A stretch of 33,460 nucleotides of DNA from Planctomycetota bacterium (GCA_023143375.1 JAGLHQ010000258.1:1-33460); one strand, 5' to 3'. Shown: positions 972 through 32,927, counted from the stretch's first letter. The notes: generated by a model not told the origin, from the sequence alone. Numbers and translations are program-made.

Positions 972-3632
972 TTAAATTGAGTTTAGCCAGCTTTGTGCAA
1001 ACAAACGCAAATCGCCAATATCTACATTGCCGTTTCCGTCAAAATCAGCACCAGAACAATATTCATTCGAGATATCGCAATCGGTTCGCTGCCATTGGCT
1101 TGCAAAAGTTGCAAACTCCGTAAAAGTATAACCGCCTTGTCGTGGACTTTCTGCTGGGCCGGTACCGCCGGGCACAGCACCTTGAGTTACAACAACACGG
1201 TCTATCATATAACCGTCTTCACGGCGAACAATATCTAATGCCTTGCCCCCTGGCGTAGAGACACTAACCGTACCTAAACTTTTCCATATCCACTGATCGG
1301 GATCCTGGCCATTATCCACTACTCCGGTGTTAATTCCTTCAAGGCCCACCCAAACAGAGTTCGAGCCTGCATTGGCTACCTGGCTTGAATCCCAATATCG
1401 ACGAACATAAACAGTGTAGTCGCCCAGGGTTGTGAAATTGATATCATATAACAAACGGGTACCATAAGTGTAATCCGGGTATTGCGGCAAGAACTGACCG
1501 TCCACGGTCCACATGTAAGAACCTACTGCTCCGCTTGCTGTAGTATCTTCGGTCCATATATTTGGGCTGTCAGATCGAGCTTCAAGACCGTCGTAGTTTT
1601 CAGCTTCGAAACAAACTTCGCCGCCCTGCTCGATGAAAGCCATATTAGTCACCGGAATCCCTTGAGATCCCTGATCTAACGCTGCACGAATGACAACCGA
1701 ACCTACACCGCCGCCTTGAGCGTCAGGAAATGAAACCTGAACGGTGTTAACTGCCTGAAGTAGTGAGGCATCGATCTTAATTGACTTTAATGAACCATAC
1801 TCAGTGTCATTTTCAAGTCTATCGGCAGCATCCTCGACTGGAATACTCAAGGTCTGACCATTAAGAACAACATCTATATCCTGATCAGTTCCGGCGGGCC
1901 TGCCTACGCTGATACGAAGTATAGCATAATCAGCTAAGTCATACTCCGGGATATTAACGGTAAATGTAGTCGTGGACGAACCTAATATCTCAGATGAAAC
2001 GATGTCACCATAATAAGGTACTTCGTCAACCTCCGAAGTCTGAGTGATCGTATTTGCATAGTCAATAATAATGACAGCGGACTCTAATCCTGCAATCTGG
2101 ATATTGGACAGGTCGGCAATAACTTGCTCGGTCAGATAGGGAGTGAAATCTGCATTACGACCTAAACGCCTTAGAGTAATAGAATCAACAGTATCAGAAG
2201 AGTTGATCTGAAAATTTAACGCTGTTGTCGACATTGACACATTGTTAAAAATCAACACCACTTTGTCCTGATCTACAAACGCATGGTGCTGCAGGTCAGG
2301 GTCATCAACAAAGGATTTGATCCTGCGGCCCCGAACATCTTTAAAAAACTCATAGAAATGTATCAGCTTGCTTTCAGAATAGTTGTTGACCGGATGTTCA
2401 AAGTTTTCAGAGACCAGCAACGATGCATAATAAGTCGGATCCCAGGCTGCAGATTCATCTAAAATAAAAGGGACTGCTTTTTTAACGGTATGAGGATGGT
2501 TCATATAAGTCATGGTATTACTGATAGCACTGTTGACCATTATATAATTGATGATCGAACGTTTTTGCATTTCCCATTCCCAGGCTGTCCCGAGGAAAGT
2601 GCTCAATGGGAAATAGTGATTAGCAAGATCTTCAGCTACGGTATCGCCTGTACCATCACTGACATAGCCACCCTGCTCGCTAAACACAAAACCAACTTCT
2701 TTGCTGTAATTGTTGTTAGTGTAATTGACTATTGCATCCAAAACCCCATCCAGCGGAAGACTACTGGTGACACGGCCAACAAAATCTCCGGAAGCAGTAG
2801 GCCCTTCCCAATGCATAAAATCGTATGTATGGAAAGAATAAAAATCCAGACCGCAACTTGTGTTATCAATAAAATCTGTGATGGTGCTTAAGTATTGATA
2901 ATTATTTTTATAAAAATAACCAACTGAATAACAAGGGCCGCCGATCTCGGTACTAAGGTTTTCCTGCTTGGCTTTACTATGAATATCCGTATGCAGATCT
3001 ATATACTTTTGATCGCTCCAATATCTCCAGTCTGGTTCATTTCTTATTTCATAAAAAGCCGGACGCATCAAATCCGTAAATCCATATTTCAGTAGATTAA
3101 CAGCTAGATCGGCTGCTGCGACTGTATTAGATGGCAGCCAGCGATCAGCTTCAACACCTGCTACGGTATATTTATCCATAAAATCGGGGTAAACATTGAC
3201 AGCGTGTTCATGTGAAGCAACATTCAGGTTAGGGCTGAAATCATTGATAAAAGTTGCACTTGCACCGTTATTAGTAGGATTGAGTTCAGAGATCATTCTT
3301 GGTATATCGACAGTGCCAGGAGCGGATGTGTCCTCATGAATGGAACTTCCCCAGTCGACCTCACCTTTGACAATGCTAAGATTTCTGCCAAAGGTCATTT
3401 CCAGGTCATTAACATAATAGTCATACCGGGTACCCACTTTTGATTCATACCAGGACCCAGACGATGAAAGATTAATATATTTCAAGCGATCGAGATCGCT
3501 TATCCCATGGATGGATCGTGTAGTGTTCGGTTCAACAGTAACCGTTGCGGCAAAGACACTGCAAGCGTTGAACAATACGATAAGAGCACAGGCGATTAGA
3601 ATGCATAACTTTATCTGATATTTATGAAGCAT
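972..3632 (-). CDS. GH86-like beta-agarase/beta-porphyranase with C-terminal CBM-like module and dockerin-like tail (secreted)
   Basis: Signal peptide; EIRNEPDW and FSEQGGYV catalytic-type motifs and FYSFHTYDFMHWEG shared with the second GH86-like ORF at 17962-19905; C-terminal ADFDGNGNVDIGDLRLFAQSWLN dockerin-like EF-hand. Confidence 0.85.
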   Translation of the reverse strand: MLHKYQIKLCILIACALIVLFNACSVFAATVTVEPNTTRSIHGISDLDRLKYINLSSSGSWYESKVGTRYDYYVNDLEMTFGRNLSIVKGEVDWGSSIHEDTSAPGTVDIPRMISELNPTNNGASATFINDFSPNLNVASHEHAVNVYPDFMDKYTVAGVEADRWLPSNTVAAADLAVNLLKYGFTDLMRPAFYEIRNEPDWRYWSDQKYIDLHTDIHSKAKQENLSTEIGGPCYSVGYFYKNNYQYLSTITDFIDNTSCGLDFYSFHTYDFMHWEGPTASGDFVGRVTSSLPLDGVLDAIVNYTNNNYSKEVGFVFSEQGGYVSDGTGDTVAEDLANHYFPLSTFLGTAWEWEMQKRSIINYIMVNSAISNTMTYMNHPHTVKKAVPFILDESAAWDPTYYASLLVSENFEHPVNNYSESKLIHFYEFFKDVRGRRIKSFVDDPDLQHHAFVDQDKVVLIFNNVSMSTTALNFQINSSDTVDSITLRRLGRNADFTPYLTEQVIADLSNIQIAGLESAVIIIDYANTITQTSEVDEVPYYGDIVSSEILGSSTTTFTVNIPEYDLADYAILRISVGRPAGTDQDIDVVLNGQTLSIPVEDAADRLENDTEYGSLKSIKIDASLLQAVNTVQVSFPDAQGGGVGSVVIRAALDQGSQGIPVTNMAFIEQGGEVCFEAENYDGLEARSDSPNIWTEDTTASGAVGSYMWTVDGQFLPQYPDYTYGTRLLYDINFTTLGDYTVYVRRYWDSSQVANAGSNSVWVGLEGINTGVVDNGQDPDQWIWKSLGTVSVSTPGGKALDIVRREDGYMIDRVVVTQGAVPGGTGPAESPRQGGYTFTEFATFASQWQRTDCDISNEYCSGADFDGNGNVDIGDLRLFAQSWLNSI

Positions 3633-3791: not shown

Positions 3792-4598
3792 TTATTTTTT
3801 TCTGCGAATCATCATTGCACCTAAGCCAAGTATTGCCATTGTAGCAGGCTCAGGAACATTTGACAGAACGACATCATCCATATTAAGATAAGTCATATTA
3901 GAAGTACCCATGTCTTGTGTTTGCACCTTGCCATACCACGTCGATGCTCCTGCCAGCGTTGGCAAGGTTTGAGCAAGATTCAACCGGTCGGCTAATACAG
4001 AACCATCTGGAGCAAGGAGTTCGCTAAGGACGTCGTAACCGACAGCCGCCATAGTCACTGTAACTCTCTGTCCGATCCAACCGCTGGATGCACTATACGC
4101 ACCGCTCATACCCATCTCAGCAGGAGATTCCCATCCCCCAAGAGTCCAAGCCTGTCCGTCCCCGGTCGTGGCAAATCCATAGGCATTATCAGCCCTCCGT
4201 GTGAACAACATCTCGGGTCCGGCGCCACTGGTCGCAGTGTTTTCACTGACAAGACCGAAAGACCAATTATATGTGTTGGGAGTAACGCCAACCACATCTC
4301 CGACGGTAAATTTAAAAGCGGATTCAATGGTGACGAACTCGCCAACAGCAGTCGGTGCAGCCACGCCTTCTACGCTAACAAGATTGTACCAATTAACTGC
4401 CGGGGTTACAGCTCCCTGCGAACCATCTACACCGATACCCGCACCTGCGAACCATCCTTGCCACCCTTTGTTATCATTCCATCCGTTCCCTGATGGATTA
4501 TGGTCGCCAACCGGCGACTCAAAGTCAAATGTAACAATACCCGCCGAAGCACTCACTGCCAACACAACAACAAACGCCATTACTAATGTTTTTTTCAT
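3792..4598 (-). CDS. PEP-CTERM sorting-domain protein (secreted, anchored)
   Basis: Start reset from 4766 to the ATG at 4598 (GGAGGATTGGAAG-ATG, then signal peptide MKKTLVMAFVVVLAVSASAG). C-terminus is NVPEPATMAILGLGAMMIRRKK. Confidence 0.9.
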   Translation of the reverse strand: MKKTLVMAFVVVLAVSASAGIVTFDFESPVGDHNPSGNGWNDNKGWQGWFAGAGIGVDGSQGAVTPAVNWYNLVSVEGVAAPTAVGEFVTIESAFKFTVGDVVGVTPNTYNWSFGLVSENTATSGAGPEMLFTRRADNAYGFATTGDGQAWTLGGWESPAEMGMSGAYSASSGWIGQRVTVTMAAVGYDVLSELLAPDGSVLADRLNLAQTLPTLAGASTWYGKVQTQDMGTSNMTYLNMDDVVLSNVPEPATMAILGLGAMMIRRKK

Positions 4599-4748
4599 CT
4601 TCCAATCCTCCAATCTAAAGATTTTTATTACATTACATAAAATGCCTGGGAGAAATGGGAGGAATAATTTAAATGTATTTTCCACCACTTTCCGCCTCCA
4701 AGCAGAACACACACACAACTTATTTTCAATAACAACACTACGAGTGTT

Positions 4749-4813
4749 ATTATACCAAAAACTCAACTAATAAATAAACCTCTAAATACGACCATAACTC
4801 CTCTTTACGCGAC
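4749..4813 (-). promoter_or_regulatory. XylR-type operator plus promoter (site 6), upstream of the PEP-CTERM gene
   Basis: Minus strand: GTCGCGTAAAGAGG and GTCGTATTTAGAGG, GAGG starts 21 bp apart, then 24 nt, then TATAAT (4749-4754). Confidence 0.75.
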
Positions 4814-4889: not shown

Positions 4890-7800
4890 TCAAGGTAAGT
4901 ACGGAGCACAATTAATGTCAGTAGGTTCCGTACAATTTAGCCATTCACTGACCAGTATAGCAAATTCGTCCAACTGATAGGTAGTTACCCAGTCAGCGGC
5001 CATTATTACCAGATCGTTGATATCGTCATAGCAGTCGTTATTAAGATCGGCACCTGCCGGTAACACAGTACCAAAATCACCACAGACTGCCGGCAATCCA
5101 TGCCATGTCATATCACGTAAGCGTATTGCCTGCAAGCCAGCAGCATCGACATCGACGTGTAAACCGCCACCGGTGATGTTGTTCATAGAAGGAGTCGCAA
5201 CGGCACCTATAGTAATAGCACCGGGACCTGTGTCACCGTCCATTTCATTCATGTCATCTTCAGCAGCTTGATTGACTTGATACCAAGTCAGGTCGGAGAC
5301 ATCAACCGTAAACGTTGTCCAAGGTGTACCGGTACTGACATCATCAAGTTCGGCCGGAATGCTGGAAATATACCAGTCTCCAAACTCACTTCTGATCAGG
5401 AAGCGATAATCATAAAGGTAACCTGCAGCCATCAGTGCAAATTCAACTTCGATAGCGATAAGCTCATCTACCATCTCAGTCGGATTATAGTTGCCTGTCG
5501 AAGAGAAAATCGAGTATGCATAGGTGCCCCTGTTGTCCTGGTTATAAAACTCGAGTGAACTATTTCCGAAATAAAGCCCTAACCAGCCCGCATCAGGAAC
5601 ATGTGGCGTCCAACCACCCCATGGATAACCCAAACTCGACGATATGTTTGGAGTTTCAGCCTGGTTTGTAGCATGATATACCAATCCAGAGCCTGCTGTA
5701 AAGTCCTGATGGACATTCGATACAGTAGCAGGTGGTGTGTATCCTGACCATTGAATATTATAAAATCTGAGGAAACCATCCTGCAGATCAGGGCTGGATG
5801 CACTATCTTCAATATAGACACCACCACCAGTGCATACGCTCAGATCAGGAACAACATCCGGATCAAGCGGATCAAACAGAATACCCGGACCTGAATCGCC
5901 ACCATCAAGTTGATTCATGTCCAGCTCAGCCGATGCATTTACACGTTTCCAGGTTAAAGCAGAGACATCTACTGTTACTGCAGATACGGCATCATCCGGA
6001 AGGTCATCAAATGCAATGCTTGATACAAACCACTCGCCTGAACCATTTCTCAGTATAATGCGAAGATCAGCTCCAAAAGTATCGAGAGCAACTGGGCCAT
6101 CCTTTATTTCGACCGTAAGGCTTACTGTACCGTTAGCCATATTAGGAACATACTTTGTTGGCAACGGGCTGCCGGATTCTGAGAAAATCGTATAGAAGTA
6201 AGAACCAGCATCTGCCATGTTACCGCTTAATGTTAATCTACTAAATGTCGGCCATGTCTGGAATGCAGCACCACTCCACAGGTAGTATGTTCCAGGTGCA
6301 GTTATAGTAGAGTCACCCCACCCGCCATAACGGAAACCGGAAGTATTAACAGCTGTCTGCTCTGTATCAACTGGAGTTGCTGTACCCTGATACATTTTAT
6401 AAATAGCACCACCTGGATGACTGGCGGAATCGAAATCTTCATATATCGCCAGCGACTCGGTTGGCGGAACATAACCTGCCACGTCAATGCCCTGAATACG
6501 CAGGAAACCGATCTGAGGATATGCAACATCATCCAAATAAAGTCCCATACCTGTAACCATAGACAGATCGGGAGCAATATTAGGATCACCAGACATTATC
6601 AAGCTGCCTGGTCCGTCGTCTGCTGCCATCTCATTCATATTATCCCGCGAAGCAGCATCTATTGTCTCCCATTTAAGGGTACTGACATCAATAGCTGGCA
6701 AAGTAGACGCTGAGGTTGATGAAATATCATCAGCGACAGTTTGCTCAGATAGATACCAATTACCATCACCATTCCTGACCATCAAACGCAGGTCAAGAGT
6801 TGCTGTAGCATTGTGGACAGATACGCCACTTAGAGTAACATATCCACTATCAAAATTCGGTACATACTGCGTCGGCATTCCTGTTCCTATATCTGAAAAA
6901 ATAGTATAGAGGTATGCACCATCTTTTCGAGCCCCTCCAACGACAGCAAGTGCAGAAAGATTAGGCCCAGATGGATTATCATACAATATTTGTGTTTGAA
7001 TAGCGTTCCAACCTGCGGGCATCCCGTCTGGATTTGCATAGCCACCAACTGGGAAGTTGTTATCAGGGAGATTGATCGGTGTTTCAGCTGGAATATTAAA
7101 ATCATCTTCATAAATCAAATCGGCAGTTTCCAGTCCGTCAAAGTTCAGCGACAACGAAACTGTTTCTACCGGTTCAACATAACCGGTCCATGCAATAGAA
7201 CGAAGTCGAACATTGCTAACAAACGGATCTGTTACGTTATCAAGATATAGCCCGCCACCGGTTACTTTTGCCAGGTTCGGATCTGCATCCGGTTCAAGCG
7301 GATCGAACAAGGTTCCCGGACCATCGGGACTGTCCAATTGATCCATATCTGCTGCCGCACCTGTGTTGGCTGCTTTCCACGTTAACGAAGCAACGTCAGT
7401 AGATAACGACACCTCACCGGAAACAGCCGCAAATGCAACACTGGAAACATACCAATTGTCGTCTGCATCACGAATGATCAATCTTAGATCAAGCGGATCA
7501 CCATTTTGCATTATGTCTACGCTCACTGTTCCCATATCCAGGTCAGGAACATACTCGGTAGCATTTCTGTTACCGTTAGTTGAGAAAACAGTATAAACGT
7601 ACGAACCTGTATTTCTTGCTCCGCTTGCAATTGACAGAATATTTTCTTCTCCAACTACTCCTGGATTAAGTGTTTGCATATAGATCTTTGGCCAGATCAT
7701 ATTTCCTGGCCATGACCCATCGTCAGGATCTGCATAACCGCCCCATGTATATCCAGAAGCCAGAACCAGAGGCTGTTCGATCGAGTCATCCGCACCATAG

Positions 7801-8699
7801 ATCGGGCTTGGAAGAGCATTAGGATCAATATGGAATGCATTGAAATTTTCGGTGATCGACGAAACCAAAGTTGCATCATCAAAGATATATGCTGTAAGAA
7901 TTGTATCAACATCGTCAAAAATGAGTGAATAATCAGCATTCGGAGCAGAATCAAAGAATACAATATTGCCGTTATCAATAAAGCCCTGAATATGTGCCCT
8001 TTTATCACCAGTCATGCTTAACATACCATCTGTAATATTTATCACAGCTGTACCGGCACTTCCAAATTCAAGGGCTTGGGCAACTGCTATCTCACCACCG
8101 GTAATATTGACAACGGCAGTGGCATCGGCATTGCTGTTTCCGTTGAGCCTCAATCGCCATGAAGCCTCGATCAACCCATCACTGATGTTCAATGTTCCCT
8201 GATTCTGAGCGTCTGAGGCTATGCTCAGGTCTGCAACATCCATATAACCATCGGTCATTTCGACTAAGCCTACTGCTGCACCGGCGGCTCTGGCAATATT
8301 AAAGGCAAAAGTCTCTACCGTTCCACCGTTAAGATTAAGTGTGCCATTACCTGTAGAGAAACCAACGCCTACATTGATCTCACGTTCCCATGCAAAATTT
8401 GGATCAGCAGGCACTGACGCAAGAAGTGAACCTCCATTGACAGTTACGGTTGAGCCATTGGCTATGATGCATTTCTTATAGAATTGAGCTGTTGTGACCG
8501 CGTCAATTTCTACACTAGGATTACCGCCCGAGTACCATCCATAGATTTCCACATCATCTGACGCGGTTGGCACCTGATCGGGATCCCAGTTTAGAGCATT
8601 GCTCCAAAGATTATCGGGAGCCGCTCCGTCATCCCAATAGAGAGCAAATGCATTCACTGAAATAACACATAAACAAATTAAGAACAAATATTTCCTCAT
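4890..8699 (-). CDS. Giant secreted protein: N-terminal beta-strand repeat region, four tandem ~220-240-aa modules, dockerin-like C-terminus
   Basis: Signal peptide MRKYLFLICLCVISVNAFA; N-terminal YWDDGAAPDNLWSNALNWDPDQVPTASDDVEIYG; recurrent TGxGLYLD, YxYTIFS, RLIIRNxxGxWYxSS and LTWKxxN blocks; C-terminal ADLNNDCYDDINDLVIMAADWV. AAGGGGAAGGTG precedes the start. Confidence 0.85.
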   Translation of the reverse strand: MRKYLFLICLCVISVNAFALYWDDGAAPDNLWSNALNWDPDQVPTASDDVEIYGWYSGGNPSVEIDAVTTAQFYKKCIIANGSTVTVNGGSLLASVPADPNFAWEREINVGVGFSTGNGTLNLNGGTVETFAFNIARAAGAAVGLVEMTDGYMDVADLSIASDAQNQGTLNISDGLIEASWRLRLNGNSNADATAVVNITGGEIAVAQALEFGSAGTAVINITDGMLSMTGDKRAHIQGFIDNGNIVFFDSAPNADYSLIFDDVDTILTAYIFDDATLVSSITENFNAFHIDPNALPSPIYGADDSIEQPLVLASGYTWGGYADPDDGSWPGNMIWPKIYMQTLNPGVVGEENILSIASGARNTGSYVYTVFSTNGNRNATEYVPDLDMGTVSVDIMQNGDPLDLRLIIRDADDNWYVSSVAFAAVSGEVSLSTDVASLTWKAANTGAAADMDQLDSPDGPGTLFDPLEPDADPNLAKVTGGGLYLDNVTDPFVSNVRLRSIAWTGYVEPVETVSLSLNFDGLETADLIYEDDFNIPAETPINLPDNNFPVGGYANPDGMPAGWNAIQTQILYDNPSGPNLSALAVVGGARKDGAYLYTIFSDIGTGMPTQYVPNFDSGYVTLSGVSVHNATATLDLRLMVRNGDGNWYLSEQTVADDISSTSASTLPAIDVSTLKWETIDAASRDNMNEMAADDGPGSLIMSGDPNIAPDLSMVTGMGLYLDDVAYPQIGFLRIQGIDVAGYVPPTESLAIYEDFDSASHPGGAIYKMYQGTATPVDTEQTAVNTSGFRYGGWGDSTITAPGTYYLWSGAAFQTWPTFSRLTLSGNMADAGSYFYTIFSESGSPLPTKYVPNMANGTVSLTVEIKDGPVALDTFGADLRIILRNGSGEWFVSSIAFDDLPDDAVSAVTVDVSALTWKRVNASAELDMNQLDGGDSGPGILFDPLDPDVVPDLSVCTGGGVYIEDSASSPDLQDGFLRFYNIQWSGYTPPATVSNVHQDFTAGSGLVYHATNQAETPNISSSLGYPWGGWTPHVPDAGWLGLYFGNSSLEFYNQDNRGTYAYSIFSSTGNYNPTEMVDELIAIEVEFALMAAGYLYDYRFLIRSEFGDWYISSIPAELDDVSTGTPWTTFTVDVSDLTWYQVNQAAEDDMNEMDGDTGPGAITIGAVATPSMNNITGGGLHVDVDAAGLQAIRLRDMTWHGLPAVCGDFGTVLPAGADLNNDCYDDINDLVIMAADWVTTYQLDEFAILVSEWLNCTEPTDINCAPYLP
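5090..7845 (-). repeat. Four degenerate tandem protein modules within the giant secreted protein (period about 660-725 bp)
   Basis: TGGGLYLDNV, TGMGLYLDDV, TGGGVYIEDS and TGGGLHVDVD recur at about 7252, 6546, 5822 and 5163, each preceded by YVPDLDMGTVSVDI- and GNWYxSS-type blocks. Confidence 0.85.
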
Positions 8700-8785
8700 C
8701 ACCTTCCCCTTATAAAAAAGTAGATTAACTTTCTGTATATTCCGATATGAACATACTCTATTATTTATTTACTCTAAGTTCCTGG

Positions 8786-9685
8786 TTAACCCCCTGTTTG
8801 ACCACCTCCGAGTACTTTGTCAGAGATATCCTTCAAATTTTTCGGAGCAGTCTCAACGTGCCCGTCGTAGAATGCCATATTGGCCCGGCTATCATTTTTG
8901 TGCCAACGCCAAAGATTAGTCAGTTGAGTATTAGCCTCTGCTTCTTCAAAGCTTGTGCCATAAAAAAGATTTGAGTGCCAAGTATCACTGTACCCTTGCT
9001 GTTTAACAGTGTACGCTGTATGATCCATAAAATACATATACTTAGACGGCGTCCGAACATTAGTAAGTTTCACGCTGCCATGTTTACTCCAGAGAGCGAA
9101 TTCGTCTCCATTATAAGACCACATGTCTCTGCCATCATTTCTCCTCGAACTCCTGCCGGGAGCATCTTGGCCTGAATAAGCCAAGATCGAATAGCCATTT
9201 GCAGCATAGCCTTTATACTGGCCTGTTGTTTCATCCTTGAACCCACCCCTAAACGACGAGGTAGGCAGGGCTTCAGCTATCATCATTTCTGCCTTATCAG
9301 GAATCAATGATGGGCACTCATAAAGATCCGCTTTGAAGCCATCGTTCACCTGCATATGTATTGCTTCCCATGACATTGCTGAATTTGTGTAAGGTTGAAG
9401 TGATCCAAGCCAATCCATCGGATCTCCAGTTGTGGAATTAGTGACACTACTAGGCGCAAACCATATTGCCGGAACTGTCCAATCATCGTTTTCATAGGCC
9501 CAAAGGTTGGCTCCTGTTACAATTTGCTTCAGTCTTGATTTACAAACGACTATTCGTCCCCCTTCTTTTACAACAGCCAAAGCCGGCATCAGAATCGACA
9601 AAAGCAACGCTATGATAGAGATCACGACGAGCAATTCGATAAGTGTAAATCCTGAATTTTTGTAATTTCTCTTAATATCATGCAT
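8786..9685 (-). CDS. Type II secretion/type IV pilin-like protein with prepilin N-terminal cleavage/methylation domain
   Basis: KNSGFTLIELLVVISIIALLLSILMPALA prepilin motif; C-terminal ANMAFYDGHVE typical of Planctomycete pseudopilin-like proteins. Confidence 0.9.
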   Translation of the reverse strand: MHDIKRNYKNSGFTLIELLVVISIIALLLSILMPALAVVKEGGRIVVCKSRLKQIVTGANLWAYENDDWTVPAIWFAPSSVTNSTTGDPMDWLGSLQPYTNSAMSWEAIHMQVNDGFKADLYECPSLIPDKAEMMIAEALPTSSFRGGFKDETTGQYKGYAANGYSILAYSGQDAPGRSSRRNDGRDMWSYNGDEFALWSKHGSVKLTNVRTPSKYMYFMDHTAYTVKQQGYSDTWHSNLFYGTSFEEAEANTQLTNLWRWHKNDSRANMAFYDGHVETAPKNLKDISDKVLGGGQTGG

Positions 9686-10047: not shown

Positions 10048-13000
10048 TTACATTCCATTTAACCAGTTTTCTGCAAACAAACACAAATCGTCAATATCCA
10101 CATCACCATCAATGTCAATATCAACACCGCTGCAATTACCATTGGAAGTGCTACAATCTGTCCGCTGCCACTGGCTGGCAAAGATCGCAAATTCTACTAG
10201 TGTTGCATTAAAATCACGCAAGCTTTCTGCAGGCCCGCTGCCAGTTGGGATGGCACCTTGAGTTAGAACAATACGATCGACCATGTAACCATCTTCACGT
10301 CGAACGATATCCAATGTCTTTGCGCCTGCGGTAGAAACATTAACCGTACCTAAGCTTTTCCAAATCCACTGATCAAAATCGTTAGTGTTATCAACTACGC
10401 CGGTGCTGACTCCATCAAGACCTGCCCAAGCAGAGTTCGAACCTGCATTGGCCTGCTGATTCGCGTCTACCCAACGACGGACATAAACTGTATAATTCCC
10501 TAAAGTCGTAAAATTAATATCATACAGCATCCGAGCGCCATAATTATAATCCGGATATTCGGGCAGCAACTGACCGTCAACGGTCCACATGTAAGAGCCA
10601 ACGGCGCCGGCAAAAGTTGTGTCCTCTACCCATAGGTTCGGGCTGTCAGATCGAGCTTCAAGAACATCATAATTTTCAGCCTCGAAACAAACCTCGCCGC
10701 CCTGCTCAAGAAAAGAACCGGCTCCTTCAATAAATGCTCCTGTAGTTGCAGACTGAGAACCTGACCAAGCTGTCATATTACCCGTTGCATCCTGCATTCG
10801 CATCCTATAAGTATATTCGGTTTGAGAGTCAAGACCTTCGTCTATATAGCTGGGACTGGACTGCCAGCCAGAATCATCACCTCCTAAATTGCCGCTGGTT
10901 TCTTCAAAATAGTATTCCACAACTCCGCTGGCATCAGAACCGGTTGTAGCGATCATACTGATCGCAGAACCATCAGCTTGCGGAACAGACGCCCACGTTG
11001 CAGGATCAGGAGTCGGCGGATCGGTCTCACCGATAAACTCGATCCAGTTAAGATTTTGGCCGCCACTCGGGCAAGAAAATTCAATACGCAAAAATACATC
11101 ACTGGCGCCAGTAACAGCAACGCCCGGAACAGTAACATCAACAAAGTTTGCCCAATCTTGGGTTTTGGGAACATTAACGATTGCTATCTGAGTTCCGTCC
11201 AAGAATACGCTAAAGGAACAGTCTGTAAATGTAGATGCAACACGAGCCTTTAACTCATAAACACCTGACGTCGCATTGACTGTATATTCCAACCACTCGC
11301 CATCATCAACCCATCCGACAGTGTATCCTCCGTCACGACTCTCTATGTCCACATCATCGGTTCTAAATTCTCCGCCTGAATTGCCGGAAGTCGTGTCATA
11401 ATATGCAACCCCTTGACCGCCATTATTATATTCCTCAGCTTCAATTCTGCCTGGGATCAATGACGGGCTGCCGTTATAAGGAGTACTCAATAGCGACAGG
11501 TCCGCACCTGCGACCCAATCTGCAGCTCCATACTCATAGGCTCCTGCATCGGGAGCAGCACCTACATAGCCATCTGTAATTCCTGAGATCACCCTTCCGT
11601 AATCGATCGGAGTAGTGCCTGCATTTAATCTAAAATCTCCATTGGCACTGTCAACAAACGGATCGGTTGACATAGTTAAATTATTTTGCAGATCGGATTG
11701 AGGCTCCCAGTTATTATCGCTACCCAGATTGTTCCACACTCTGATATTAGTAAAAGAAGTTCCAGCTGCATGCCAGGCACCCATCACAGCCGAACCATCC
11801 CAGAAAGTGTTATTGAAAACATCTATATCTTTACAATCCAGGTTCATCTGTATACTCGTCCACTCAGTGTTCCATACGACGTTATGATGAACGCTAAAAC
11901 CTTCTGAATCATTGTCTAAATAGATACCAGCAACTTTGGTCTTTGTACCGCTGGAATACGCATCGTGGAACCAGTTGTGATGAATTTCTGTGTTTTTAGG
12001 CCCCCCGGTATTATAGAACAAACCGCAATCATCGGCTATCAAAGCACAAGCAGAAATATCATTGTAGGCTATCTCACAATTATTTGTGACCAACTGGAGC
12101 GCATCTCGACCTGCTCGGGTAATCGTATTACCGATCAAGCGGGTACCATTGCCGCCAGTCCATGACCGGGCCATAACGATCGCGTCATAGTCGCCCAGAT
12201 AATCAAAATCATGAATATAGGAATTCGTTACCAGGTTATTTGTTCCGTCATCCCAGATTCCTGTGCCTGAGCCATAACCTATTTCACAATTCTGGACCGT
12301 ATTATTGGAGCCCGCCAGATAAACGCTTTGACTATTTACGCTAAATCCAGTGACTATACCCCGATGCCAGTTTCCATACAAACTGGTCACACCAAACAGT
12401 AAGTTATTGGAACCGCCAATTTCAATACTGCCGCCAAGGACATTTAGATCTCTGATCTCGATGTAATTTTTTGTACCAAGATCAATGGCAAGTTCACGCC
12501 TTCTCATTGATATCTGACCGTCAGATGGAGCAACACCACCGGGAAGTTGAACATACAATAAATTAGTCGCCGAATCATAATACCATTCGTTCTCATAATC
12601 CAAAGCATCCTTGACCCCCTCAAGCCAGAAGTCGCCTAAATCCTGCGGTGCATGTTCTGTACGTATCCACTCAAGACCGGCACCTGTTTCCAGATCAAAT
12701 GTCACTCGTGTGCTTGTACTGGATTTAATAAACCTGCGCCAAGTCAGCCAACCGGCGCCTGCTGAATCACCGTAGAAATATATCGAACCGCCATCTTCCC
12801 AGTTAATATTGGGAATCCCCGGCGAATAGTCTAGATAGGCATTGTAAATAACAGTGCCATCACTTCCGCTGGTGTTTCGCAGAGAATTTTGCGTCCAGAG
12901 ATCGCCGTCGGTATTGTTGGGCCATCGAGCAAGATCAAGTGCATTTAATCCATCCATCACTAAATTCTTTTGGCCAAGATCCCAGTTTACTGTTGTTTTA

Positions 13001-13329
13001 TAAATTGAACCGGCGTCCGGTGTCCAGCCGCTTAAAGGCTGCATCGCAGAGATCGTAACGTATTCCTCCGGATACGACTGGAATATAATAGGATTGCCAG
13101 ATGTCCCGGAATTGGCTGGGGTAAGTGTCTCTTCGTAGGTCCCCTGACGTACATAACAAACATCACCTGCGACGGCAACACTGGCAGCTTTTGATATAGT
13201 CAGATATGGATCTGAGATCGTGCCAGAATTGGAATCACTCCCATTTGTGGCAACATAAATATCACGTCCAAAGCATACGCCTGAAAACGTAACTAAAAAC
13301 ACCAAAAGTGACACTGTAAAATTCTTCAT
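10048..13329 (-). CDS. Secreted right-handed beta-helix protein (putative glycosidase/lyase) with CBM6-like, FN3-like, CBM-like and dockerin-like modules
   Basis: Start reset from 13458 to the ATG at 13329 (GAGGATGGGT-ATG, signal peptide MKNFTVSLLVFLVTFSGVCFG). IYVATNGSDSNSGTISDPYLTISKA and NTVQNCEIGYG-type beta-helix repeats; RIEAEEYNNGGQGVAYYDTT CBM6-like; C-terminal VDIDIDGDVDIDDLCLFAENWL. Confidence 0.85.
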   Translation of the reverse strand: MKNFTVSLLVFLVTFSGVCFGRDIYVATNGSDSNSGTISDPYLTISKAASVAVAGDVCYVRQGTYEETLTPANSGTSGNPIIFQSYPEEYVTISAMQPLSGWTPDAGSIYKTTVNWDLGQKNLVMDGLNALDLARWPNNTDGDLWTQNSLRNTSGSDGTVIYNAYLDYSPGIPNINWEDGGSIYFYGDSAGAGWLTWRRFIKSSTSTRVTFDLETGAGLEWIRTEHAPQDLGDFWLEGVKDALDYENEWYYDSATNLLYVQLPGGVAPSDGQISMRRRELAIDLGTKNYIEIRDLNVLGGSIEIGGSNNLLFGVTSLYGNWHRGIVTGFSVNSQSVYLAGSNNTVQNCEIGYGSGTGIWDDGTNNLVTNSYIHDFDYLGDYDAIVMARSWTGGNGTRLIGNTITRAGRDALQLVTNNCEIAYNDISACALIADDCGLFYNTGGPKNTEIHHNWFHDAYSSGTKTKVAGIYLDNDSEGFSVHHNVVWNTEWTSIQMNLDCKDIDVFNNTFWDGSAVMGAWHAAGTSFTNIRVWNNLGSDNNWEPQSDLQNNLTMSTDPFVDSANGDFRLNAGTTPIDYGRVISGITDGYVGAAPDAGAYEYGAADWVAGADLSLLSTPYNGSPSLIPGRIEAEEYNNGGQGVAYYDTTSGNSGGEFRTDDVDIESRDGGYTVGWVDDGEWLEYTVNATSGVYELKARVASTFTDCSFSVFLDGTQIAIVNVPKTQDWANFVDVTVPGVAVTGASDVFLRIEFSCPSGGQNLNWIEFIGETDPPTPDPATWASVPQADGSAISMIATTGSDASGVVEYYFEETSGNLGGDDSGWQSSPSYIDEGLDSQTEYTYRMRMQDATGNMTAWSGSQSATTGAFIEGAGSFLEQGGEVCFEAENYDVLEARSDSPNLWVEDTTFAGAVGSYMWTVDGQLLPEYPDYNYGARMLYDINFTTLGNYTVYVRRWVDANQQANAGSNSAWAGLDGVSTGVVDNTNDFDQWIWKSLGTVNVSTAGAKTLDIVRREDGYMVDRIVLTQGAIPTGSGPAESLRDFNATLVEFAIFASQWQRTDCSTSNGNCSGVDIDIDGDVDIDDLCLFAENWLNGM

Positions 13330-13481
13330 ACCCATCCTCAGAAAACATATTATGATGCTTTTCATTATTGCACTACATACAGCCAACAATATCCAAACTC
13401 GCCTATATTGATGAAACACCACACCCCGACTGTATCTTAATACCCCATAAGCAGCCATTGTATTAATATTTCTAGCCTTTT

Positions 13482-13631: not shown

Positions 13632-15332
13632 TTAATCCTGCCTTAGATGCTTTTGGTAGTATTCTAAACGCTCCTTCGACAGCTCAACTGTTAATGGGGG
13701 TGTTTGGGAACCCCTGGCCATAGCCACCTGAGATTGGCAAACCTTTCGCATTTTATTGAGCATCTTAGCATGTTTAGGATCATCTGATAAATTAACGATC
13801 TCATCGGGATCATTATGCAGGTCATAAAGTTCCTCATAGACGGGTTTTTCCCCTGAGACCGATGCATTAAGCCATTGCTTGTAAAGTGCAGCCTGTGGAT
13901 TGGTAACCATGTATTCTTCTGTCCAATGACTAACATTCCTATTGTAGATCGACTGGTCATTTTCAAAATAACGAATATACTTCCAACGTTGGCTTCTGAC
14001 ACTTTCGATCCTTGGATTGCCAAATCGAGTGGCCCATAAATTTTCTGCAAATGCATGTTCACGCCATCTGACATCTTTGCCTTGAAGCAATGGAAGCATT
14101 GAGGCTCCCTGCATTGAATCCGGTGCCGAAATTCCAGCGATGCCAAGTAATGTCGGTGCAATATCAATAGATTGAACCAATTCTTTTCGACGTTTCTTTT
14201 TGCTTGAAACATTAACACGTGGGTCATAGGCGATCATCGGCACATGCAGACATCTCTCGTAATTCAACGCCTTTCCGCCAAGCCCGAACTCTCCCTGCAT
14301 AATCCCATGGTCCGAACTATAGATTATGATCGTATTTTTTGACAGCCCTAGTTCTTCTAGTTTTCGTCGGACATTACCCACATGCCTGTCAATACCGGTA
14401 ACGGCCTGAAAAGTACGAATTTTTCTTTCAAGCATGGTTTTCGGTTTGTCAACATAATCATAGCCATGCTGACGGTATTCTGTCGGTAGCACTTCGGGGG
14501 GAAGTTTTGGGGTTTTAATATTTGACTTTGCCAGATAGAGGTCTCCCAGGCTGATATCATCTTTTTGATCACGATAAAGGGATTTATATATCTCAGGATC
14601 GCCTTCAAGCTGCGCCATCCGGCTGGCACCAAAATCATGCGGGAGATTAAAACATATCGAAAGACAAAATGGTTTATCAACAGGCCTTTCTTCAAGAAAC
14701 TTCTTTGCCCCGGAAGCAAATTCTTCATTTGTCTCAAGGAAATTCATAACACCCTCGTCGATGATCTCAATTTGAGTATCGGCTTTGGCATTATCAAAAA
14801 TATCGGTCTGGTTCTGGCACTGTTTTTTAGGATAGAATCCAATATGGCCGTGTGAAGCATACCAGTAATCAAAACTTTTTTCCATAACACCGCTGCTGTA
14901 TCCATCATTTCCTATCGGCGAATGATTCTTACCAACATAGCCGGTATAATACCCTGCTTTTTTTAACAGAGCAGGATAAGATTTTTGCCAGGCCTCTTCC
15001 GCAACAGCGGTACCGGAGTTAAAATTGACACCATGCCTGCGTTCATACTGGCCAAGGAAATAGCTGATCCTGCTCGGCGTACAAATGGCACTTGTGATCG
15101 ACGCATTTTCAAAAAGCACACCATCTGCTGCCAGTCTGTCGATATTAGGTGTTTGAATTAGAGAATTGCCCATACACCCTAAAGTATCTGCCCGCTGGTC
15201 ATCCGTAAGGATAAAGATGATATTGGGCCGATCTGCTGAGATATCTTTTTCCAATCGACCAATGCCGCAACCAGCCAAAAAAGAACTAGCAGAAACACCA
15301 ACCGTCATTTTAAGAAAACTTCTTCTGTCCAT
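13632..15332 (-). CDS. Sulfatase (formylglycine type), Tat/lipoprotein-like signal
   Basis: Start reset to 15332 (CAGGAGATAATCTG-ATG). MDRRSFLKMTVGVSASSFLAGCG; PNIIFILTDDQRADTLGC; C-T-P-S-R motif. Confidence 0.92.
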   Translation of the reverse strand: MDRRSFLKMTVGVSASSFLAGCGIGRLEKDISADRPNIIFILTDDQRADTLGCMGNSLIQTPNIDRLAADGVLFENASITSAICTPSRISYFLGQYERRHGVNFNSGTAVAEEAWQKSYPALLKKAGYYTGYVGKNHSPIGNDGYSSGVMEKSFDYWYASHGHIGFYPKKQCQNQTDIFDNAKADTQIEIIDEGVMNFLETNEEFASGAKKFLEERPVDKPFCLSICFNLPHDFGASRMAQLEGDPEIYKSLYRDQKDDISLGDLYLAKSNIKTPKLPPEVLPTEYRQHGYDYVDKPKTMLERKIRTFQAVTGIDRHVGNVRRKLEELGLSKNTIIIYSSDHGIMQGEFGLGGKALNYERCLHVPMIAYDPRVNVSSKKKRRKELVQSIDIAPTLLGIAGISAPDSMQGASMLPLLQGKDVRWREHAFAENLWATRFGNPRIESVRSQRWKYIRYFENDQSIYNRNVSHWTEEYMVTNPQAALYKQWLNASVSGEKPVYEELYDLHNDPDEIVNLSDDPKHAKMLNKMRKVCQSQVAMARGSQTPPLTVELSKERLEYYQKHLRQD

Positions 15333-16865: not shown

Positions 16866-16906
16866 CTGATTCTCCTTCAACCTATTAAACAAATCAAATC
16901 TATTCA

Positions 16907-17929
16907 TTAAGTTTTTTTGAGCTGCAGAACAATTCCTGAACAAGTATTATATTTACCTCCAACAATTGCACAGAACAGGTATTCTGGTTTTCCATCTTTC
17001 ATTAATAATTGCGGGCGTTCAAAACGTCCTTCGCGGGCCAATCCATTAGGCTCTTCATCAAAGTATTTATGCGAATTATAATATGAAATTACCGGATCGC
17101 TCCACTTAATGCCATCATCCGATTCAAACATCAAACCATATTCATGATTATAGAAACCCATGTCACGCATCAACATCTTAAACTTTCCATCCTGAACAAA
17201 TATATACCCATCCTCACACTGCATACCTGCTCCATATGTGCGAACATTGACAACAGGATTGTCTGGGCATTTGACATAAGGGCCTTCAAGTTTGTCAGCT
17301 ATCGCCAACCCATAAGCACGATTTGTATGCAGATCGGCATCTGGAGTAACCGGATCAACATCTCTTAACTTTAAATCGTGTTCCCAGTCATCGACATTCC
17401 AAGCTTTGTAGTACAACCAGAACTGGCCATTGGGGTGCTGAAGGAACGAAGGGTTTGTTGTGTTGATACTGTCCCAGTCCGAGCGAGTTTCTGACGGAAG
17501 TACGATAGGTGTATCCGAACGTTTCCAGGGACCATAAAGGGAATCGGAGATAGCCATACCAACACGCTTTGTATATACTGTTCCGTCACAATTACCCATA
17601 TAGAACAAGGCATACTTGTCACCGACTTTGTGAATCGTCGGATTATGGATCGTCATCGAATCCCACCAATCGCCACCCCTGCCCTTCAATGCACTTTCAA
17701 GCACTTCGTACGGGCCTTCGACTTTATCTGCAACGGCGTGGCCGATCTCGCAGCAAGTAAGCCAGCCTCCAAACTGTGCCTCATTGGGCCATTTTGAATA
17801 GAAGACATGAATTTTCCCATCCGGCCCATAGATCGGAGAACATCCCCAGACATTGTAATCCGGGTCCTCTAAAATACGTCCAACAGGTTCCAGGGATTTA
17901 CAAAAATCGGAAATCTCTTCTTTTTTCAT
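16907..17929 (-). CDS. Cytoplasmic five-bladed beta-propeller glycoside hydrolase (GH43/GH117-like fold)
   Basis: Repeated propeller-blade motifs (GKIHVFYSKWP, DKYALFYMGN, GQFWLYYKAW, GIKWSDPV, GRFERPQLLMKDGKPEYLF). No signal peptide. Confidence 0.75.
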   Translation of the reverse strand: MKKEEISDFCKSLEPVGRILEDPDYNVWGCSPIYGPDGKIHVFYSKWPNEAQFGGWLTCCEIGHAVADKVEGPYEVLESALKGRGGDWWDSMTIHNPTIHKVGDKYALFYMGNCDGTVYTKRVGMAISDSLYGPWKRSDTPIVLPSETRSDWDSINTTNPSFLQHPNGQFWLYYKAWNVDDWEHDLKLRDVDPVTPDADLHTNRAYGLAIADKLEGPYVKCPDNPVVNVRTYGAGMQCEDGYIFVQDGKFKMLMRDMGFYNHEYGLMFESDDGIKWSDPVISYYNSHKYFDEEPNGLAREGRFERPQLLMKDGKPEYLFCAIVGGKYNTCSGIVLQLKKT

Positions 17930-17961: not shown

Positions 17962-19905
17962 TTAATTACTATTATTAACCGCAGCCCGGATAACAACCGA
18001 CCCTACGCTGCCTGGCTTATCATCATTAAAAGCGACCTTTACCTTGTTCTCTTTTTTGACAAGATCGACAGGCAGCGGAACGATCTTACAAGATGCATAG
18101 TCACGTTTGTCATGATCCTCAAGCCTGTCTACGCAGGTTTCCAGCGGTATTTCTATCGGTTTGCCGTTAAACCAGACTTTGATACCTTTATCTGTACCTG
18201 CAGGACGAGAGATGCCTATACGAAGAAATGCATAATCCAAACTCCCGGCATTCGGCACTTTAACATTAAAAGTCTCCGCTTCTTTAACCGCCACGTCTAC
18301 GCGATCGCCATAACATGGAACTTCGTTGATAGTTTTCTTGCTCTTGATACTTCTGCCATAATCGGCTATAAGCAAAACAGATTCACGTCCCGCCAGCTTT
18401 ATCTCTTTTGTAAATCTGATCTTCTTCTCAGTATAATATAGAGTAAAGTCTTCGTTCCTGCCTAAACGGCGTACAGATAATTTTCTGGCACGAGGCATTT
18501 CTATAGAAACCGATTCTTCTTCATCCGCAAGGTTATTCATCACAAGGTACAGCTTACTTCCGTCAACAAATGCTTGCGTTTGTATATCCGTATCAGAGCT
18601 TAAAACCTTAGCTCGCCTGCCATCAACCCCTTTGAAAAACTTGTAAAAGTTATGCTGTTGAGTTGGCACCAAACGCGATTTATCCTCAAACTCGTATGGC
18701 ACATATAACGAAGCGTAGTATTTTGGGTCCCAGCGGTAAGGGTCAAAAAGGATAAAGGGAACAGATTTTTTGATCACGTGAGGATGGTCCATGAAAACCA
18801 TCGTATTGGCAATAATGGTGCTAACGTGAATAAATTCGACAATGGATCGCCTTTTCATATCCCATTGGAAACCGGAACCGGGAAAATATTTTTCTGCGAT
18901 CTTCAGCGTAGACGCGGCACCCTGAAAATCGCCATCGTGTTCATTAACATAGCCGCCCTGCTCGCTGACAACAATGGGAACTTCTTTGCCAAACTTGTTA
19001 ACGGTATAATTCGGCACAATATCCAGCACACCTTCTAAAGGAAGACCGCTGGTCACTCGGCCAGCGTAATTGTCGCCTTCCCATTTAAAAAAGTCATAAA
19101 CATGGAAAGAATAGAAGTCCATCTTGCAATCGGTCTTGTCGATAAAGTCAACGTACCCCCTAAAAACCCTATACAAATCCCGATACATATATGACACCGA
19201 CATACAGAAACCGCCGACCTTGACATCGGGAGTCGATTCATGAACCGCTTCCATCGTTTTCATGTGCCAGTCAGCAAGATGATCGCCCTTGAAAAACCCC
19301 CAATGCGGTTCGTTTATCGGCTCATAATACGCAGGTCGATCAAAATCTGTATAGCCGTATTTCAAAACCGCTGCTGAAAACTCTGCAGCAGCATCAATAT
19401 TCTCAGGAAGGTACTCGGCATGATCACCGCTAATAGTATCTTTGGTGGTGTGTTTACCCATGAACTCAGGGTAAGAGTTATGATTGCCATGGGCTGCTAC
19501 ATCGAGATTTTCCCCCATGTCATTTATAAATTTATCTGAGGGACGATATCGCCGCTTGCCCAGATGTTTCTTGAGCAGCTCGATATTTACGTAACCGGGA
19601 CGAGATGGGTCTTCCTCTACTATGGACTTTAGTCCTTTAACAACTCCCAGTCGCCTGCCAAAAACTATCCCAAGCTCGTTAATAAGATAGTCATACATCT
19701 CCTCGTCTTTGCATCGCTTGTCAAACCTGCTGCCAGAATCACACATTGAAAAATAAACTGTACGATCCAATTCACTAATGCCTTGTATACTCCTGGTAAT
19801 CTCAGGATCGACTGTTATATTGACAGTTGCATGCACATCATAACCAACAAACAAAACAATGACTAACGCTGCCAAAACACATAAAAACCGATGAAGCTTG
19901 TCCAT
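17962..19905 (-). CDS. GH86-like beta-agarase/beta-porphyranase without CBM or dockerin
   Basis: Signal peptide; YEPINEPHWGF, FYSFHVYDFFKWEG, VVSEQGGYV; colinear with residues ~1-660 of the ORF at 972-3632. Confidence 0.87.
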   Translation of the reverse strand: MDKLHRFLCVLAALVIVLFVGYDVHATVNITVDPEITRSIQGISELDRTVYFSMCDSGSRFDKRCKDEEMYDYLINELGIVFGRRLGVVKGLKSIVEEDPSRPGYVNIELLKKHLGKRRYRPSDKFINDMGENLDVAAHGNHNSYPEFMGKHTTKDTISGDHAEYLPENIDAAAEFSAAVLKYGYTDFDRPAYYEPINEPHWGFFKGDHLADWHMKTMEAVHESTPDVKVGGFCMSVSYMYRDLYRVFRGYVDFIDKTDCKMDFYSFHVYDFFKWEGDNYAGRVTSGLPLEGVLDIVPNYTVNKFGKEVPIVVSEQGGYVNEHDGDFQGAASTLKIAEKYFPGSGFQWDMKRRSIVEFIHVSTIIANTMVFMDHPHVIKKSVPFILFDPYRWDPKYYASLYVPYEFEDKSRLVPTQQHNFYKFFKGVDGRRAKVLSSDTDIQTQAFVDGSKLYLVMNNLADEEESVSIEMPRARKLSVRRLGRNEDFTLYYTEKKIRFTKEIKLAGRESVLLIADYGRSIKSKKTINEVPCYGDRVDVAVKEAETFNVKVPNAGSLDYAFLRIGISRPAGTDKGIKVWFNGKPIEIPLETCVDRLEDHDKRDYASCKIVPLPVDLVKKENKVKVAFNDDKPGSVGSVVIRAAVNNSN

Positions 19906-30452: not shown

Positions 30453-32927
30453 ATGTTTAAGTCTTTATATACTACTGTTGGTATGTTTGTAATTTCATTA
30501 GCGCGTCTAAACGCTGCACCTATACCTGACATTGATTTCAATGACAATTGGCAGTTCCACTATGGCAAAGTTAACGATGGGCAATCATTTGACCTTGACG
30601 ATTCGCATTGGCGTAAAGTTGATCTGCCGCATGATTGGGCGATAGAAGGGCCTTTCGATGTCAAGTATAACGCCAGAACCGGAGGACTCCCGGTACATGG
30701 GACCGGATGGTATCGAAAGTCTTTTGAAGTACCTCCGGAATGGGAAGACAAAAAGATCTCTGTTGAATTTGATGGAGCTATGGCAAATGCGCATGTCTGG
30801 GTAAATGGTAATTTCGTAGGGAATAGACCATATGGCTACATTGGTTTTGAGTTTGACATCACCGATAAAATCGAATTTGGAAAAACTAATGTCATTGCTG
30901 TGCGTTTGACCCCGGAAGACCTGGCAATGAGATGGTATCCTGGTGCTGGATTATATAGAAATGTCAAACTCAAAGTCAAAAACCAACTGCATATCCCGCA
31001 ATGGGGAACTTTTATAACCACTCCTACGGTAACAAAAAAAGAGGCCACCGTAAATATTTCTACAACTATTCGAAATGATTTTAAATCTTCTACCAAGGCA
31101 AAACTTGTTACCTTACTGGTAGATACCAATGGAAAAACAGTCTCTAAGGACTCGCTCGAATTAAAAATTAACAGCCTCAAGTCTAAAAATATCGAGCAGT
31201 CCTTTAGAATTAAATCTCCCAGTTTGTGGGACATCGGAAAACCAAATCTATACAAAGCTGTTAGTCAGGTTTGGATAGGCCGAGATCAAGTCGATAATTA
31301 CGAAACCCAATTTGGCATACGCTCAGTGGTTATTGATCCTCAAGGCGTTTCGATCAATGGCAGAAAAATACGTCTTAAAGGCGTATGTATGCATCATGAC
31401 CTTGGCCCGTTAGGTGCCGCAGTAAACTATCGAGCCACAGAGAGGCAAATGCAGATTATGCAAAGCATGGGTGTAAACTCATTGCGCACCAGCCACAACC
31501 CCCCATCCCCTGAAATGCTTCAGGTATGTGATCGCCTGGGGATTTTGGTTATCGTCGAAGCATTTGATGAGTGGCGAATGGCAAAAGTCCCTAATGGATA
31601 TCACAAATACTTTGACCAATGGCATGAAAAAGATCTTCGCGATATGATCAGAAGGGACCGAAACCATCCATCGGTATTTATGTGGAGCATAGGCAACGAA
31701 ATTCTTGAGCAGGGCCAAAAGGATGGTTGGAAGTTAACCAAGCACCTTACGGAGATTTGTCATCAGGAAGATACTACTAGACCAAACACAATCGGGTTCA
31801 ATTATTACCCGGCTCCCTTTAAGAACAAATTGGCCGATTATGTAGATGTGGTAGGAATGAATTACTGGCCGGTCAAATATGCAGAAATTAAAGAACGCAA
31901 TCCTGATATAATTCTTTATGGTTCAGAGACTTCTTCTCAGACCAGCAGCCGCGGAATCTACCACCTTCCATGGTCACCGGATGAGCAACATGAAACAAAT
32001 CAAGTATCCAGCTACGATGTCATTTCAGGCCCTCCCTGGGCTTATGCGCCGGATATAGAATTTGATTTACAGCAGGCAACCCCCTCTCTTTTAGGGGAAT
32101 ATATATGGACTGGATTTGATTATTTGGGTGAACCAACTCCATATGGCGGCCGCGACAATTCTACTAATGGATATTGGAACGACGACTGGCCCTCCAGGTC
32201 ATCATACTTTGCTCCAGTGGATTTGTGTGGTTTTCCGAAGGACCGTTTCTACCTCTATCAAAGCCAATGGACCGAAGAACCCATGGTACACCTTTTACCG
32301 CACTGGAATTGGGAAGGCAAAGAGGGAGAAAACATCCCCGTGGTGGTCTACACAAATTGCGAGGAGGTTGAGTTATTTGTAAATGGAAAATCCGTCGGCA
32401 AGAAAACCAAAGGAGTCGACACGACCACATTTATTGCTGAGTTTTACAGCTTCAAAAAAGGCCCGTACGAATCAAAATATCGCCTGGCATGGCAAGTACC
32501 CTACGAACCCGGCTCTATTAAAGCTGTAGCATACAAAAATGGTAAAATTGCAGCAACCAAAAAGATCACCACAGCAGGTGCACCAGCAAAAATAGAACTT
32601 ACCGCAGACCGCTCAATAATTAGTGCTGATGGCAAAGATTTGTCCTTTATTACCGCACGCATACTGGATGCTGAAGGAAACTTCTGTCCAATGGCTGACA
32701 ACATGGTAAGTTTTAATGTAAAAGGTAATGCAGATATTATTGCTGTAGGCAACGGCGACCCGACTACGACAACATCTTATCAAGCAGATGAACGAGCCGC
32801 TTTCAATGGAATGTGCCTGGCCATCATCCGTTCCCAAAACACTAAAGAAACCGTCTGCATTACAGCGACTTCGGATAAATTAAAGGCATCTACGATTAAC
32901 ATTCTTTGTCAACAAACGAAACGCTAA
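30453..32927 (+). CDS. GH2 family beta-galactosidase-like glycoside hydrolase
   Basis: Signal peptide; VDLPHDWAIEGPF; GTGWYRKSFEVP; GVCMHHDLGPLGAAVN; LRTSHNPPSPEMLQVCDRLGILVIVEAFDEWRM; MWSIGNEILEQ; YGSETSS. AAGGAGTTGTA-ATG start. Confidence 0.93.
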   Translation: MFKSLYTTVGMFVISLARLNAAPIPDIDFNDNWQFHYGKVNDGQSFDLDDSHWRKVDLPHDWAIEGPFDVKYNARTGGLPVHGTGWYRKSFEVPPEWEDKKISVEFDGAMANAHVWVNGNFVGNRPYGYIGFEFDITDKIEFGKTNVIAVRLTPEDLAMRWYPGAGLYRNVKLKVKNQLHIPQWGTFITTPTVTKKEATVNISTTIRNDFKSSTKAKLVTLLVDTNGKTVSKDSLELKINSLKSKNIEQSFRIKSPSLWDIGKPNLYKAVSQVWIGRDQVDNYETQFGIRSVVIDPQGVSINGRKIRLKGVCMHHDLGPLGAAVNYRATERQMQIMQSMGVNSLRTSHNPPSPEMLQVCDRLGILVIVEAFDEWRMAKVPNGYHKYFDQWHEKDLRDMIRRDRNHPSVFMWSIGNEILEQGQKDGWKLTKHLTEICHQEDTTRPNTIGFNYYPAPFKNKLADYVDVVGMNYWPVKYAEIKERNPDIILYGSETSSQTSSRGIYHLPWSPDEQHETNQVSSYDVISGPPWAYAPDIEFDLQQATPSLLGEYIWTGFDYLGEPTPYGGRDNSTNGYWNDDWPSRSSYFAPVDLCGFPKDRFYLYQSQWTEEPMVHLLPHWNWEGKEGENIPVVVYTNCEEVELFVNGKSVGKKTKGVDTTTFIAEFYSFKKGPYESKYRLAWQVPYEPGSIKAVAYKNGKIAATKKITTAGAPAKIELTADRSIISADGKDLSFITARILDAEGNFCPMADNMVSFNVKGNADIIAVGNGDPTTTTSYQADERAAFNGMCLAIIRSQNTKETVCITATSDKLKASTINILCQQTKR

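Follow-up and report, generated by a model that had tools for sequence, protein, structure and literature searches.

Jelly-roll carbohydrate-binding modules (CBMs) of families CBM4, CBM11, CBM22 and CBM30 are accessory domains of secreted carbohydrate-active enzymes (CAZymes), in which they at times occur in tandem. In the polysaccharide utilization loci of Bacteroidota, SusD-like proteins and surface glycan-binding proteins (SGBPs) capture polysaccharides without catalysis and are encoded together with the degrading enzymes. Here we describe a four-module protein encoded on a 33,460-nucleotide stretch of DNA from a marine-type Planctomycetota bacterium (GCA_023143375.1, JAGLHQ010000258.1:1-33460; hereafter 'the window', with positions counted from its first letter). 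Its modules resemble the CBMs named above in predicted fold class and Foldseek neighbourhood as well as in their accessory use, but they are somewhat longer (~200-240 amino acids), show only ~7-14% identity to them in fold alignments, and have no sequence match among Pfam and NCBIfam models or PDB chains. The role we propose is comparable to that of SusD-like proteins and SGBPs, although the architecture of four equal modules, a solenoid-like region and a tail is different, and no SusD Pfam match was found among the window proteins scanned. We judge it probable that the protein, once secreted, acts as a multivalent binder without catalytic activity, its CBM-like modules holding agaran near the enzymes of the locus. 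The module family is a new one of a familiar CBM-like accessory kind, here in a multivalent architecture.

The four-module protein and its module family

The open frame of 1270 amino acids (4890..8702, minus strand, stop included) likely begins at the ATG at 8699, which directly follows a GTG and has the upstream sequence AAGGGGAAGG. The first-pass annotation of this DNA had called the product giant and secreted. The former term is overstated, since 1270 amino acids is an ordinary size for such loci; secretion is supported by a plain signal-peptide-like N terminus, judged by eye. From this start the protein runs through a beta-rich N-terminal region and four modules to a tail with one EF-hand-like loop, as follows (module tree supports are ultrafast bootstrap/SH-aLRT, the approximate likelihood ratio test, and the bootstrap was not fully settled).

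4890..8702, minus strand: four-module secreted protein; open frame, with a three-module orthologue (P0004) in CALKKA010000039.1
8643..8699, minus strand: signal-peptide-like N terminus, MRKYLFLICLCVISVNAFA, judged by eye from the sequence
7860..8639, minus strand: N-terminal region, amino acids ~60-240 of which are a candidate short beta-solenoid (AlphaFold2 model)
7149..7847, minus strand: module 1, from the four-module profile and AlphaFold2; pairs with module a of the G146/CALKKA orthologue, support 95/95
6441..7145, minus strand: module 2, from the four-module profile; pairs with orthologue module b, support 96/94
5709..6437, minus strand: module 3, from the four-module profile; without counterpart in the three-module orthologue
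5088..5705, minus strand: module 4, from the four-module profile; pairs with orthologue module c, support 100/99
4893..5096, minus strand: C-terminal dockerin-like tail; by sequence, one EF-hand-like loop (DLNNDCYDDIND) and a degenerate second half

The presence of four related modules in tandem, as first annotated, is confirmed by all six pairwise alignments: their Smith-Waterman scores are 195-346, whereas no shuffled pair scored above 69 (300 shuffles each; z = 27-50). Pairwise identity is 29-37% over aligned columns. The boundaries first proposed lie within ~25 bases of the profile placement, and the motifs quoted with them are found in the modules.

No described family accounts for this repeat. 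The full protein matched nothing in Pfam at E<=0.1 and nothing in NCBIfam, single modules run against Pfam at E<=10 gave no credible match (the sole match, to a beta-propeller model at 0.094, falls below its cut-off), and neither the protein nor its modules had a credible match among PDB sequences. By these comparisons the family is undescribed in the databases searched, and the earlier statement that no catalytic signature could be recognised holds in that the modules match no known enzymatic domain in any of the three. Several specific identities were also rejected. Profile scans dismissed a known Pfam or NCBIfam domain, and hhalign, with a single sequence on one side in each case, gave a probability of 0.2% for a divergent Lyase_N domain (PF09092) of the PL8 protein that carries the module, 0.2% for the GH115_C-like domain (PF17829) of the neighbouring GH86 enzyme, and ~0.2% for a domain of the PEP-CTERM protein. 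An origin on plasmids or phages was likewise rejected, the whole protein having no tblastn match in PLSDB plasmids and modules 1-2 having none in INPHARED phages.

Given that modules 1, 2 and 4 each pair with one module of the orthologue, and not with one another, recent tandem duplication is ruled out for three of the four modules. The repeat set therefore predates the split of the two genomes, with each position forming its own lineage. Module 3 was either gained in the window genome or lost in the CALKKA genome.

AlphaFold2, supplied with an alignment of 16 modules, models module 1 as a beta-sandwich (predicted local distance difference test score, or pLDDT, of 89.4; predicted template modelling score, or pTM, of 0.87). 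A Foldseek comparison of this model with the PDB returned 14 matches at E<=1e-3, which include CBM11 (6r31, 1v0a, 6r3m), exo-beta-agarase (4bq2-4bq4) and a mannanase with a CBM (1wky), while matches at weaker E-values include CBM4, CBM22, CBM30 and the laminarin CBM X584. The first-pass annotation had anticipated a jelly-roll or CBM-like fold, and the prediction agrees, with PDB neighbours that are largely CBMs at low TM-scores. It had also named two findings that would speak against a ligand-binding role, namely a known enzymatic domain or a predicted fold inconsistent with a beta-sandwich; both were looked for, and neither was seen. The matches to GH50 exo-beta-agarases (4bq2-4bq5, 5z6p, 6xj9) lie inside these enzymes, in a part that we take to be their N-terminal CBM-like domain, but the four-module protein differs from them in having no catalytic barrel, a low TM-score and no sequence similarity. 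A search of a viral structure library for fold neighbours gave generic matches to tail-fibre or CBM-like sandwiches and was uninformative, and the deeper module alignment (A3) contains no segment of sufficient conservation for a scan of viral contigs. The conserved positions hold glycine or aromatic residues: Y87, Y89, W136 and G203 (numbered as in the aligned module 1) occur in all 16 aligned modules, and W161 in 15 of them.

The module is rare among the planctomycete genomes searched. Profile matches were obtained for 4 genomes among the 161 of the order, for 5 among 397 sampled across the class, and for 3 among 392 in each of two samples of the phylum. The samples overlap, and the same small set of genomes recurs in them: the window's own (G000), G146, G004, G037, G029 and G333, with a weak match in G013. 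A scan for close relatives over 84,980 species found one locus, on CALKKA010000039.1 from a metagenome-assembled genome (MAG) of an uncultured member of the Phycisphaerae, which was taken as the same contig as G146:C39; counted as a separate record, it brings the total from seven genomes to eight.

Elsewhere the module keeps varied company. Two copies flank the catalytic part of a PL8 lyase in G037 (L041:8160-12587), a protein that has a dockerin-like tail and is encoded between sulfatase genes. The module also occurs in a GH2-containing protein (G333), ahead of a beta-helix/CBM96 protein (G029), and in CBM96, LamG and PKD proteins of G004. In this last genome it is N-terminal in a 1685-amino-acid protein (L040:7548-12605) with PQQ-type beta-propeller repeats, a malectin domain and a tail, and a PL8 lyase is encoded one gene away. 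The same 1685-amino-acid protein has a methyltransferase-like stretch (PF13649, E 0.004) that is below the cut-off. Compared with what is usual for CBMs, then, the module has a recognised CBM fold as predicted by AlphaFold2 and Foldseek and is found as a discrete unit beside CAZyme catalytic domains (two copies with PL8, and GH2) and in beta-helix proteins, and no CBM profile was matched in the Pfam and NCBIfam scans.

The region between the signal and the modules (amino acids ~60-240) went unmentioned in the first-pass annotation. Its AlphaFold2 model (m57a06966663e, alignment A5, pLDDT 71) is beta-rich with recurring strand pairs; pLDDT is ~60-87 in the core and below 50 at amino acids 1-47 and 236-276. 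The region has no Pfam match, and its sequence autocorrelation is weak, being reached by 16 of 500 shuffles. The model suggests that this part is possibly a beta-solenoid, a weaker claim than that for the module fold because the N-terminal model is of moderate quality.

Proposed binding role and alternatives

The predicted genes mark the window as a locus for the degradation of agaran (agar/porphyran), with two GH86 enzymes, a distant GH117-like protein, a GH2 beta-galactosidase and four sulfatases. In the mechanism we propose, each ~200-amino-acid module would form a beta-sandwich of the CBM type, and a row of four would bind a repetitive polymer with greater avidity and would keep substrate near the GH86 endo-enzymes and sulfatases of the locus. 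The N-terminal region would probably act as a spacer, and the C-terminal tail would probably direct sorting or anchoring. Because the module is reused beside different domains (PL8, GH2 and beta-helix), including complete catalytic domains, it has the character of a binding accessory. Together with the predicted beta-sandwich and its CBM neighbours, this reuse supports in outline the first suggestion for this gene, a multivalent glycan-binding or adhesion protein. From fold, reuse and context we infer that the modules bind glycan, with agaran as the ligand; display of the protein at the cell surface is presumed.

Some observations pull the other way and should temper this view. The agaran ligand is a putative one. 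The top Foldseek match is a viral turret protein. The fold class also takes in proteins that do not bind glycans, and high-ranking matches include FlaA1 and a complex I assembly intermediate. TM-scores against solved CBMs are low (~0.3-0.4 by query and <=0.54 by target), and the comparison therefore supports a fold class and no specific family. The conserved aromatic residues may belong to the core instead of a binding face. Moreover, other occurrences of the module accompany PL8 lyases, which are of the chondroitin-lyase type, and thus specificity for agaran is not a property of the entire family.

We consider it unlikely that the modules have a structural part, as spacers or adhesion repeats that keep the cell or its matrix together without binding the algal substrate. 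In surface proteins, repeats of the beta-sandwich type often follow a solenoid-like domain, PKD and LamG domains are present in several relatives, and the protein has diverged further from its orthologue (53% identity) than have the surrounding enzymes (69-75%), as would be expected of a surface protein. However, a pure spacer would be less expected to occur singly or in pairs beside the catalytic domains of PL8 and GH2 proteins, and the gene stays within the sulfatase/GH86 block in two genomes. We regard as very improbable a module that is itself an enzyme of an undescribed family, such as a lyase, esterase or hydrolase, present in four copies. Homology cannot exclude catalysis, since there is no family match, and two polar residues, E28 and R130, are each conserved in 14 of the 16 modules. 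Nevertheless, E28 is the best conserved acid, neither an acidic residue nor a histidine is invariant across the 16, the fold neighbours are largely CBMs, and in other proteins the module accompanies catalytic domains that are already complete. Four catalytic copies in tandem would also be unusual.

The tail bears on a further proposal, in which the protein would belong to a cellulosome-like complex, its dockerin docking on a cohesin scaffoldin and its modules targeting the complex. The annotation of the tail as dockerin-like stands as far as one EF-hand-like loop of the D-x-N-x-D...D form, which it shares with dockerin type I proteins, but not beyond it: the second half is degenerate and has no loop, in the orthologue as well, where a dockerin would have two, the tail has no match to the Pfam dockerin model (PF00404) at E<=10, and no cohesin was found in the incomplete MAG. 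Dockerin (PF00404) matches are frequent in all four genomes examined (G000, G006, G037 and G146), similar C-terminal tails are frequent in the order, and a two-cohesin scaffoldin has been reported for Limihaloglobus sulfuriphilus (PMC11557425). Two relatives assembled as single contigs, G006 (L062/L065) and G037 (L063/L064), each have one open frame of ~2000 amino acids with two cohesins and dockerin-like segments. Cohesin matches, in contrast, are confined to 9 of the 161 genomes of the order, and none was found in G000 (85.6% complete, 409 contigs) or in G146, which is also incomplete. Given this imbalance between dockerins and cohesins, most such tails appear to be independent of cohesins, a role in sorting or attachment, for example, is more likely for them, and we give the cellulosome proposal the least credence of those considered here.

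On the binder reading, an undescribed CBM-like family tied to the degradation of sulfated polysaccharides (the agaran locus and the PL8 lyases) would join the glycan-capture proteins of this phylum, about which little is known. Should binding be demonstrated, the modules could serve as probes for polysaccharides of red algae.

Genes of the surrounding locus

The remaining features of the window are listed below.

176-526: Mutator-family transposase fragment (PF00872), at the left edge of the locus
972..3632, minus strand: GH86-type enzyme with a C-terminal GH115_C-like domain and dockerin-like tail (PF18206, PF18040; PDB 5ta1, 8h97, 4aw7)
3792..4766, minus strand: PEP-CTERM protein, probable ATG at 4598 (PF07589, 1.4e-5; 60% identical in L038)
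8786..9685, minus strand: pseudopilin-like gene with an N-methylation motif (PF07963, 3.3e-8; 52% identical in L038)
10048..13458, minus strand: beta-helix and CBM6 enzyme-like protein (profile scan), with a C-terminal unit as in 972-3632
13632-15365, minus strand: sulfatase (PF00884)
15384-16943, minus strand: sulfatase (PF00884)
16907..17929, minus strand: distant GH117-like protein (PDB 3p2n, 4ak6, 5ta7, E ~1e-6; GH43 in Pfam)
17962..19905, minus strand: second GH86-type enzyme (PDB 8h97, 5ta1, 4aw7)
24203-25315: regulator with a periplasmic-binding-protein-like domain and an AraC helix-turn-helix (Pfam); the start may lie further upstream
25407-26843, minus strand: sulfatase (PF00884)
28836-30398, plus strand: sulfatase (PF00884)
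30453..32927, plus strand: GH2 beta-galactosidase (PDB 5t98 over the full length)

The window also encodes a second beta-helix protein, an SSF transporter and a GDSL protein. The PDB relatives of both GH86-type enzymes are exclusively beta-agarase, the glycoside hydrolases 5ta0/5ta1 and the GH86A beta-porphyranase, and all four sulfatases contain the C-x-P-S/T-R motif. The literature searched yielded nothing on phycisphaeral porphyran loci, nor on BuGH86.

Gene order is kept in CALKKA010000039.1, where two sulfatases, the CBM6/beta-helix protein, the pseudopilin, the four-module protein's orthologue (with three modules), the PEP-CTERM protein and GH86 follow one another. Identity between the two loci is 69-75% for the enzymes, 60% for the PEP-CTERM protein, 53% over 1015 columns for the four-module protein and 52% for the pseudopilin.

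The C-terminal ~220 amino acids of the GH86-type enzyme and of the CBM6/beta-helix protein (window 972-1637 and 10048-10713) are 73% identical over 222 amino acids. This common unit consists of the GH115_C-like domain and the dockerin-like tail, and the CALKKA counterparts (L038 4561-7824 and 13601-16549) carry it as well, which suggests domain sharing or gene conversion within the locus.

Pilin-like neighbours

Planctomycetes have been proposed to take up polysaccharides through pili of pilin-like proteins, described as dextran-binding fibres (PMC5394234) and as 'fishing rods' (PMC12078418). The present locus offers candidate parts for this idea in its binder, its pilin-like protein and its PEP-CTERM protein. 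The four-module protein might, on this model, be the substrate-binding element of a pilin-based capture apparatus in which pseudopilin, tailed binder and PEP-CTERM protein form a surface fibre or its tip, and in which the modules encoded beside each pilin-like gene would determine the substrate. We consider this extension doubtful, and for the four-module protein itself its support is weak.

A pseudopilin-like gene adjoins the four-module gene in both genomes that have it (window 8786-9685 with 4890-8702 and 3792-4766; L038 8060-13376). Four further loci (L086-L089), chosen for their pseudopilin homologues (G037, G002 and G001), all have nearby a large secreted open reading frame (ORF) with a dockerin-like tail, and a PEP-CTERM gene is often not far away. 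The association was then counted in one genome, over 800 kb of G037 (G037:C1 1-400000 and 600001-1000000), with labels assigned by regular expressions and mechanical ORFs of >=150 amino acids; this test was made after the pattern had been seen in other G037 loci, and the sample does not include L086 or L087. A tailed protein is the immediate neighbour of 6 of 13 pilin-like ORFs, against ~1.0 expected, and lies within three ORFs of 9 of the 13, against 2.7 expected. Neither observed value was reached in any of 2000 label permutations, nor was the association reached in 3000 trials in which pilin positions were shifted locally by 4-20 ORFs. No description of this gene association was found in the literature searched, which was a limited library. 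PEP-CTERM-like ORFs in the same sample are not enriched as immediate neighbours of pilin-like ORFs, but they are enriched within three ORFs of them (7 of 13 against 2.1 expected, p = 0.0017).

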